Both the position numbers and the translations under genes were made by a program. From a virus: a stretch of 64,000 nt of DNA. The stretch spans positions 1 through 64,000 of IMG/VR virus record IMGVR_UViG_3300008108_000191; one strand, given 5' to 3'. Shown piece after piece: positions 15,887 to 52,266 of this stretch. Within the stretch, counting starts at the first letter, position 1. Every line of letters begins with the position of its first letter. The notes below the pieces were generated by a model. It saw nothing but the letters and a program-made list of their open reading frames with translations, was not told where the DNA came from and did not search any database.

Positions 15887-15891
15887 TTTAT

Positions 15892-15964
15892 ACCCACAGT
15901 CGGATTCGAACCGACACTGGAGGAGTTTTAAGCTCCCTATCTCTGCCTGTTGGATTATGCGGGC
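15892..15964 (-). tRNA. tRNA with UAA (Leu) anticodon, short variable loop
   Basis: A 73-nt cloverleaf reads on the minus strand: acceptor GCCCGCA / TGTGGGT (two G-T pairs), anticodon stem GGGAG / CTCCT with loop CTTAAAA (anticodon TAA), a 5-nt variable loop and a perfect T arm (GTCGG TTCGAAT CCGAC). The base after the acceptor stem is A; CCA is not encoded. Leucine tRNAs normally have a long variable arm (class II), which is absent here, so identity by anticodon is Leu but the architecture is atypical. Confidence 0.8.
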
Positions 15965-15970
15965 GTAGGT

Positions 15971-16043
15971 GCAGGTTGCGAGGATCGAACTCGCCTTCGC
16001 AGAATTATGAGTTCTGAGCATTCTACCAGATTGCTAAACCTGC
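15971..16043 (-). tRNA. tRNA with CAU anticodon (Met or Ile2)
   Basis: Cloverleaf on the minus strand: acceptor GCAGGTT / AACCTGC perfect, anticodon stem CAGAA / TTCTG with loop CTCATAA (anticodon CAT), T arm GCGAG TTCGATC CTCGC. The G1-C72 pair argues against an initiator tRNA; it may be elongator Met, or Ile if C34 is modified to lysidine. CCA is not encoded. Confidence 0.88.
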
Positions 16044-51024: not shown

Positions 51025-51639
51025 TCAAGAACGATTGCCCCACTGAATATCGGGGAATGCTTCAGCAACATCATCCTGAGTAAGATTGTATTTGTCGGTT
51101 AGTTTTTTATCTTTTACAAGACAAATAATCTCTGCTTCAAGTGGGTGTAAACCTTGGAGAAGATTGATAAACATACTTTCTCTACGAATGCTGTTCATAC
51201 TATCATTACCACCTTTCACAAAGAAATAAAAGTTCTTCGCCTCTTTACGAATAGTAGTTCTAGCCTGCTGATCAGTCACTCCCATTGAGAATGAACCAGT
51301 CTCATACATTCTACGTGTCTCTTGACTGATTTTGGTAGAAAGTGTACCAGAGTTTACAGTTTGTTCATCATAAGAGGAATATGGAACTTCCCCTGGTGGA
51401 AGAACACTTACAACACTCTCATCAAAGTTCCAAATGAGGATGATCTTAAGAGACATATCCTCATATTTTTTCAGAACTTCGACTTTTTTTGCTTTGGTTT
51501 TTTGTTTCGATACTAGATCAAGAACCTCAAAAACCAGTGGATTATTAGGGAGTTCTAGTGAGGTAGAAACCTTAACAGTCCTTGGTTTTGTATTGGTAGT
51601 GTTACTCGTCGTCTTCTTCGTCGTTGATTTCGTAGTCAT
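51025..51639 (-). CDS. conserved T4-like cyanophage protein (DUF6433-like), 204 aa
   Basis: A Thr/Lys-rich N-terminal tail, then ELPNNPLVFEVLDLVSKQKT, KKVEVLKKYEDMSLKIILIW, SSMNSIRRESMFIN-like region (NDSMNSIRRESMFINLLQGL) and HPLEAEIICLVKDKKLTDKY. The latter half resembles a conserved T4-like phage family seen in most marine members, function unknown. The ATG at 51639 is used; 51663 is an alternative. Confidence 0.7.
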   Translation of the reverse strand: MTTKSTTKKTTSNTTNTKPRTVKVSTSLELPNNPLVFEVLDLVSKQKTKAKKVEVLKKYEDMSLKIILIWNFDESVVSVLPPGEVPYSSYDEQTVNSGTLSTKISQETRRMYETGSFSMGVTDQQARTTIRKEAKNFYFFVKGGNDSMNSIRRESMFINLLQGLHPLEAEIICLVKDKKLTDKYNLTQDDVAEAFPDIQWGNRS

Positions 51640-51832
51640 GATAGTTTTCAAAGTTAAATGCAATCACCTCATCTGGAATCAGGTTACCCTGGTTATCGAA
51701 CATTTCGGGGTGAGGTCTTGGAATCTCCCGATAGTTCATCATATATTCTCTTGCTACCCAACCACCTATAAGTCCCACAATAAGAAACAATACGGTCATG
51801 AATGAACCAAAAACTAGACTAACTGCTAACAT
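51602..51832 (-). CDS. small membrane protein, 76 aa
   Basis: MLAVSLVFGSFMTVLFLIVG, then LIGGWVAREYMMNY: a single N-terminal transmembrane helix followed by a soluble acidic tail (YHDYEINDEEDDE). Downstream of a long structured leader and a late box. Unknown function. Confidence 0.7.
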   Translation of the reverse strand: MLAVSLVFGSFMTVLFLIVGLIGGWVAREYMMNYREIPRPHPEMFDNQGNLIPDEVIAFNFENYHDYEINDEEDDE

Positions 51833-51843
51833 TTCTTTTGCCT

Positions 51844-51962
51844 CGGGAAACTACTATTCTTTTCCTTGACTTAAAGGAAAATTCAAAATAGATGGTAACT
51901 TCCCGATTCAGAAAGCAAACCATCTTTTCGAAGATGATATGGAATGGTTGCGTTTGCTTTCT
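51844..51962 (-). ncRNA. highly structured leader/RNA of unknown type
   Basis: Four perfect stems in 119 nt: AGAAAGCAAAC/GTTTGCTTTCT (51910-51920 with 51952-51962) enclosing CATCTT/AAGATG (51921-51926 with 51931-51936), and CGGGAA/TTCCCG (51844-51849 with 51900-51905) enclosing TTTTCCTT/AAGGAAAA (51860-51867 with 51874-51881). It lies between a late box (52016) and the ATG at 51832, so it would form the 5' leader of the 76-aa gene. An 83-aa ORF (51819-52070) crosses it; a coding alternative is not excluded. Confidence 0.5.
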
Positions 51963-52015
51963 CTTACCTCCATTAAGCAGTAAATCAACGCCACGGTTTA
52001 CGTGACTCTTGTTTT

Positions 52016-52023
52016 TATTTATG
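52016..52023 (-). promoter_or_regulatory. late promoter box (CATAAATA) for the structured leader
   Basis: CATAAATA on the minus strand, directly after nrdC and about 185 bp before the 76-aa gene. Confidence 0.5.
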
Positions 52024-52266
52024 TTATGACTTGATGACTTGTTGTTCTTTGAGGAATCTGATTGTGTCAACGGAACCTCCTAGCTTTTTATCATCACAAA
52101 TAACCTGAGGGAAGGTAGAACCTTCACCAAATTCAGAATAGAATTCTTCTCTAGTAAAGTCCTCACTAAGAGTATACACGACAAACTGAGTGTTTGTCAA
52201 CTCTAAGACTTTTTTTACTTTGTCGCAATATGGACAACCTTCTTTTGAGTAAACTGTAAAATTCAT
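52024..52266 (-). CDS. nrdC: glutaredoxin, 80 aa
   Basis: MNFTVYSKEGCPYCDKVKKV carries the CPYC active site (residues 11-14); TFPQVICDDKKLGGSVDTIR supplies the cis-Pro (TFPQV) and GG loop. Expected to reduce ribonucleotide reductase or other disulfides during nucleotide production. Normal size. Confidence 0.9.
   Translation of the reverse strand: MNFTVYSKEGCPYCDKVKKVLELTNTQFVVYTLSEDFTREEFYSEFGEGSTFPQVICDDKKLGGSVDTIRFLKEQQVIKS

Follow-up and report, generated by a model that had tools for sequence, protein, structure and literature searches.

A hidden gene between nrdC and a membrane-protein gene of T4-like cyanophages may double as a conserved RNA leader

Background

Translation initiation of gene e, soc, gene 49 and I-TevI of bacteriophage T4 is inhibited by hairpins, and in the gene e type the late promoter lies within the hairpin and the late RNA loses the structure (PMC3014915); according to the same review, no riboswitch system of T4 has been functionally characterised. 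The locus described here was found in a window of 64,000 nt (the whole stretch of DNA analysed, positions 1 to 64,000 of IMG/VR record IMGVR_UViG_3300008108_000191). It shares with the T4 hairpins a T4-like phage, a late promoter nearby, structure at a translation start and, presumably, a differing fate of early and late transcripts, but its promoter does not lie in the 5' strand of a stem: the fold is downstream of the promoter, would stay in the late RNA, and is also coding. The erm-type translational attenuators have the same four-segment topology, with an upstream ORF across segments 1 to 3 and a last stem at the downstream ribosome site, and both of their pairing sets (1:2 with 3:4, and 2:3) are conserved here, 2:3 being rare at equilibrium; in contrast to them, this locus has a conserved protein gene in place of a drug-stalled leader peptide, and ribosome-driven switching is hypothetical. 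Translationally coupled overlapping genes with an intercistronic hairpin share an upstream ORF ending at or over the downstream start, and a hairpin formed from the upstream coding sequence and the intercistronic region, but the present locus adds an alternative fold and a promoter within the upstream ORF. The leader may work like a translationally coupled or attenuator-type leader, which is a likeness only, with no named regulatory family assigned.

Results and discussion

A hidden gene of the PHROG 4685 family

The stem interval lies between nrdC, which encodes a glutaredoxin, and the gene of a 76-aa membrane protein, all on the minus strand in that order (Table 1), and the late-promoter box, the membrane ORF and an 83-aa ORF with a TTG start are located where the original prediction had placed them. 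The 83-aa ORF, which is without annotation in the genomes of S-SRM01 and S-SKS1, is, judging from its sequence, a real gene (52070-51819) and a member of PHROG 4685, a family of hypothetical proteins of S-SM2-like phages (E 7.3e-9, model positions 2-53/54); its 3' end overlaps the start of the membrane gene by 14 nt. By tblastn, homologues were found in isolates as well as in more than 90 distinct IMG/VR loci, where they are flanked by nrdC and the membrane gene. The frame is open in all of the 78 relatives (less than 97% identity) that were used for ORF and codon counts, among which no other frame across the ORF is generally open, and substitutions relative to S-SRM01 and S-SKS1 are mostly at third codon positions; a conserved frame and synonymous bias are thus joined by a plausible start, as expected of a protein-coding gene. 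The product, with the core NRGVELILNGGKRKQTQPFHIIFEKMVCFLNREVTIYFEFSFKSRKK, is small and basic, and is modelled with low confidence (pLDDT 66) as a helix plus a beta-hairpin, a predicted structure for which no PDB match was found. An overlooked gene is thereby added to isolated cyanophage genomes. In P-SSM2 (L003:1500-1910) and AG-345-F15 (L005), the small ORF is truncated and continuous in frame with that of the membrane protein; P-SSM2 has an annotated protein of 136 aa whose start lies within nrdC, probably a fusion or an annotation extended too far.

Table 1. Features of the locus, with positions in the window
Feature	Position	Strand	Remarks
nrdC (glutaredoxin)	52024-52266	-	upstream gene, hosts the start of the small gene; PF00462 3.6e-12; PHROG 22
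Shine-Dalgarno GGAGGT (52080-52075) and TTG start (52070-52068)	52068-52080	-	both within nrdC
Hidden 83-aa gene, PHROG 4685 family	51819-52070	-	+1 frame relative to nrdC
Late promoter CATAAATA	52016-52023	-	within the hidden gene, codons for I/L-N-K
5' hairpin of the late leader, TCAC/GTGG	51991-52005	-	100% of cells paired, 27 sequences
Segment 1, AGAAAGCAAAC, pairs with segment 2 (structure A)	51952-51962	-	99.3% of cells paired
Hairpin CATCTT-CGAA-AAGATG inside the 1:2 stem	51921-51936	-	98.1% of cells paired; 2 pairs changed on both sides
Segment 2, GTTTGCTTTCT	51910-51920	-	partner segment 1 (A) or partly segment 3 (B)
Alternative hairpin B (2:3), GATGGT..GCTTTC / GGAAGT..ACCATC	51891-51924	-	99.4% of cells paired
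Segment 3, CGGGAAG	51899-51905	-	partner segment 4 (A) or partly segment 2 (B)
Inner hairpin of the 3:4 arm, TTTTCCTT/AAGGAAAA	51860-51881	-	97.2% of cells paired
Segment 4, GTAGTTTCCCG, followed by the GAGG ribosome-binding site of the membrane gene	51841-51854	-	
76-aa membrane protein, presumed regulated gene	51602-51832	-	PHROG 275; weak DUF2973 match

A start site inside nrdC

The hidden gene has no ATG, and its start is a TTG in nrdC behind a GGAGGT that is contributed by the Gly-Gly codons of the glutaredoxin. The small ORF is +1 relative to nrdC in 75 of the 78 relatives; an ATG downstream of the nrdC stop is almost absent among them, and a TTG or GTG is found in nrdC 38-44 nt before its stop and 4-5 nt after GGAGG. 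Of the +1-frame relatives, 71 of 75 spell the Gly-Gly codons as GGAGGx (background GGA 0.36), and 64 of 65 have GTT as the valine codon at the start (background 0.30). Four lineages are without the nrdC-internal Shine-Dalgarno sequence, each with a later TTG, and of three lineages in other frames, two start at an ATG over the nrdC stop and one at a TTG. The small gene has an ordinary ATG with GGAGGT in S-SM2 and Bellamy, an ATG that overlies the nrdC stop in DSL-LC03, and a GTG start within nrdC in S-T4 and Sf-CH8. At loci L031, L046, L069, L044, L049, L078 and L080, where the Shine-Dalgarno sequence and TTG in nrdC are lost and a replacement start codon lies near the nrdC stop, the start codon has migrated, and these loci form a naturally occurring series of such shifts.

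Programmed +1 frameshifting at the nrdC stop (e.g., at UCC UGA C) to give a NrdC fusion would agree with the prevalent +1 frame, almost always without an ATG there, but is very improbable and was rejected: the final codons before the stop are diverse among the relatives, with no conserved slippery codon, the start codon and Shine-Dalgarno sequence in nrdC are conserved, lineages lacking the internal start have a TTG at -5 or an ATG over the stop, and relatives such as S-SM2 and DSL-LC03 use ordinary ATG starts.

A late promoter nested in the hidden gene

The late promoter consensus of cyanophages is NATAAATA (PMC2984593), and 12 of the 19 such boxes on the minus strand of the window lie 17-32 nt before the ATG of a gene. 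The box in the hidden gene is upstream of all the main stems, and its codons are frozen at the nucleotide level (isoleucine is ATA in 53/53, leucine is CTA in all, and asparagine is AAT in 77/77); CTAAATAA occupies the same place in the S-SM2 clade. Since the promoter is inside the gene, a late transcript would begin after the start codon of the small gene, whose remaining sequence would form a leader of approximately 177 nt for the membrane gene. Leader and coding sequence had been offered as competing explanations of the stems; both hold and the choice between them falls away, for one stretch of DNA is a conserved protein, an RNA structure kept by evolution and a late promoter together. The feature is thus real, beyond chance, and more interesting than the original prediction stated. 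Among the relatives, 75/78 share an out-of-frame ATG (ATGGAGG) at the boundary of codons 22 and 23 (about position 51975 on the minus strand), the amino acid being variable (N/H/Y); on the late RNA it would open a frame of 17-21 codons across segment 1 (58/75).

Folding of the stem interval

The perfect stems are present as described, the 11-bp stem being that of segments 1 and 2, along with a perfect 8-bp arm (51860-51867/51874-51881), a 6-bp CGGGAA/TTCCCG pairing inside imperfect arms (51836-51857/51892-51913), and the CATCTT/AAGATG arm. The 119 nt fold with -33.7 kcal/mol as minus-strand RNA (z -4.85; 0 of 200 dinucleotide shuffles as good) and with -39 kcal/mol on the plus strand (z -6.1). 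The claim of a stem density beyond chance therefore survives comparison with dinucleotide shuffles, but against synonymous recoding with the protein and codon usage held, the z value of this interval is -1.2 to -1.6 (clade means -1.3 to -1.6); the dinucleotide-shuffle z overstates the case because the coding of a protein explains part of the folding energy, and once the protein is fixed, only a modest excess is left (mean z about -1.4). The suggestion of a riboswitch found no support: 51800-52100 has no meaningful Rfam match and none above the gathering threshold, no aptamer-like core is present, and nothing indicates ligand binding. The only Rfam matches elsewhere in the window are two adjacent tRNA genes (15891-16043, minus strand).

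Selection on the fold among relatives

Several stem codons are invariant despite the availability of synonyms (K27 is AAG in 74/74, background 0.36; V42 is GTT in 78/78; C43 is TGC in 76/76) or nearly so (K40 AAG 76/77, S56 TCC 72/78, R60 AGG 73/76), and the nearby codons T29, P31, F32 and H33 vary freely. Along the tree, third positions that pair have been substituted less often than those that do not (p 0.047), and what is tolerated in stems is A/G exchange opposite U, by which the transcribed RNA remains paired. The original prediction took a conserved protein with synonymous changes that break the stems as the outcome that would count against it; the protein is indeed strongly conserved, but most synonymous changes leave the stems intact: pairing survives a minor letter at a paired third position in 143 cases and is lost in 39 in structure A, and in 48 and 4 cases, respectively, in structure B. 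Pairing is above codon-matched nulls in A1, A2, A3, A5, B1 and B2, with no excess for the B0 pairs; in an alignment of 27 sequences, paired cells make up 96.6% for A and 99.4% for B, compared with slid maxima of 57.5% and 67.3%. A plus-strand RNA or DNA cruciform was rejected because, read on the transcribed strand, the minor letters at paired sites leave 143 pairs intact, against 65 on the opposite strand, and an overlapping gene in another frame was rejected as the cause of synonymous constraint because none is generally open.

The covariation proposed as a check in cyanophage relatives was found at a predicted base pair of hairpin B, M41.3-T50.3, where codon 41 (ATG/ATA) tracks codon 50 (ACC/ACT) in 106 sequences (GC 48, AT 38, GT 10, AC 1). 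This is the strongest of 378 third-position pairs, and 0 of 3000 simulations on a flanking-gene tree were as good, a null that covers the relatedness of these sequences and not their recombination; covariation beyond phylogeny at a predicted pair is one mark of a conserved cis-regulatory RNA. The simulation on 106 taxa replaced an independent-pairs test on the first tree that was too small (3 pairs). The partner of M41.3 in the other fold, I34.3, ranks second of 26 in one scan and 11th of 378 in a stricter symmetric scan. Segment 4 retains TTCCC in 69/78 relatives, including lineages whose ORF ends upstream; its sequence GTAGTTTCCCGGAG thus persists beyond the reading frame there, and coding is not what maintains it. 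No 3:4 pairing was found in DSL-LC03 or S-B43.

The stems might be a by-product of a protein that alone matters, Lys/Arg-rich and Phe/Glu codons being naturally complementary, and it is true that RNAs recoded synonymously for this protein are almost as stable and that the B0 pairs do not exceed codon nulls. This explanation is nonetheless disfavoured and improbable, as it leaves unexplained the frozen synonymous sites in stems beside freely varying codons, the tree-corrected covariation at predicted pairs, and the retention of segment 4 outside the reading frame. Selection on the fold is well supported by these sequence comparisons, and a switch is plausible.

A model for control of the membrane gene

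The most likely role of the structure, as far as the sequences indicate, would be control of membrane-protein translation. In the proposed model, ribosomes on transcripts through nrdC would initiate at the TTG inside nrdC to make the small PHROG 4685 protein, would melt the RNA while translating, and would stop at or just before the start of the membrane gene, which would then be read by coupling. After replication, the internal late promoter would produce a second mRNA without the start codon of the small gene, on which the sequence of the hidden gene would be an untranslated leader folded as 1:2 plus 3:4, its final stem abutting the ribosome site of the membrane gene; the 2:3 pairing, as an alternative fold, would release segment 4. 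The sequences themselves show the gene, its start site, the promoter motif, the selection on base pairs and the place of the last stem, and from there we infer the transcript ends, the coupling, the switching and the sign of the effect. That this is a dual-purpose gene, of which the fold sets membrane-protein translation according to transcript type and ribosome traffic, is a reading with about an even chance of being correct. The mutual exclusion of 1:2 plus 3:4 and 2:3 suggests a switch; that the synonymous sites embody a bistable RNA switch, in which the gene's own translation, or its absence on the late mRNA, picks the fold that turns the membrane protein on or off, is a more tentative proposal. 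In the energy model of the late leader, 1:2 has a probability of 0.77, 3:4 of 0.70, and 2:3 of only 0.08 at equilibrium, and the ribosome site against which the last stem ends is about half unpaired, so sequestration would be partial at best.

The same figures bear on a reading without any switch, in which the structure mainly stabilises the late mRNA (a 5' hairpin and stacked stems opposing RNase E-type decay) or else prevents other pairings at the membrane gene's ribosome site. The 5'-proximal hairpin is always paired, the 1:2 plus 3:4 ground state dominates, and the last stem stops just short of the ribosome site, which is only half paired; however, 2:3, which excludes 1:2 and 3:4, shows covariation and pair retention, and a pure stabiliser needs no second pairing. 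Taken jointly, these two variants are possible but doubtful. Control of translation by the dual-purpose gene offers a testable model for the timing of late membrane-protein synthesis.

The same plan in the S-SM2 clade

The S-SM2/Bellamy-like phages have different segments at the same codons (AGGAGG, TCTCTCTT, AAGAGAGA, then TCTCT before a GGAG site). The 3:4 pairing is better with a clade's own partner than with that of the other clade, by about 7 kcal/mol in the first clade (93/95) and 5 kcal/mol in the second (51/54), and own 2:3 partners are 2-4 kcal/mol better than clade-swapped ones, with no such gain in control combinations; the contrast between these two deeply split clades represents one divergence. 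The 1:2 stem passes the swap test in the first clade, and in the S-SM2 clade is not clearly better than the swapped control. In the S-SM2 clade, too, some of the strongest covariation falls on predicted pairs, namely 5.3-8.3 and 39.3-45.3.

Autoregulated leaders are common in T4-like phages, and the small protein, being basic with a predicted beta-hairpin, might bind its own leader as a protein-binding operator. This is unlikely, since its structure model is poor and without a fold match, and the stem sequences are wholly different between the clades, the protein being moderately conserved. Marine T4-like phages of two deeply split clades present a clear case of a protein, a promoter and a conserved RNA fold on one stretch of DNA. 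Members of the S-SM2 clade (L255-L334, core codons 5-9) have a further hairpin on the 5' side of segment 1, in which A-U and G-C pairs interchange (21 AT, 21 GC).
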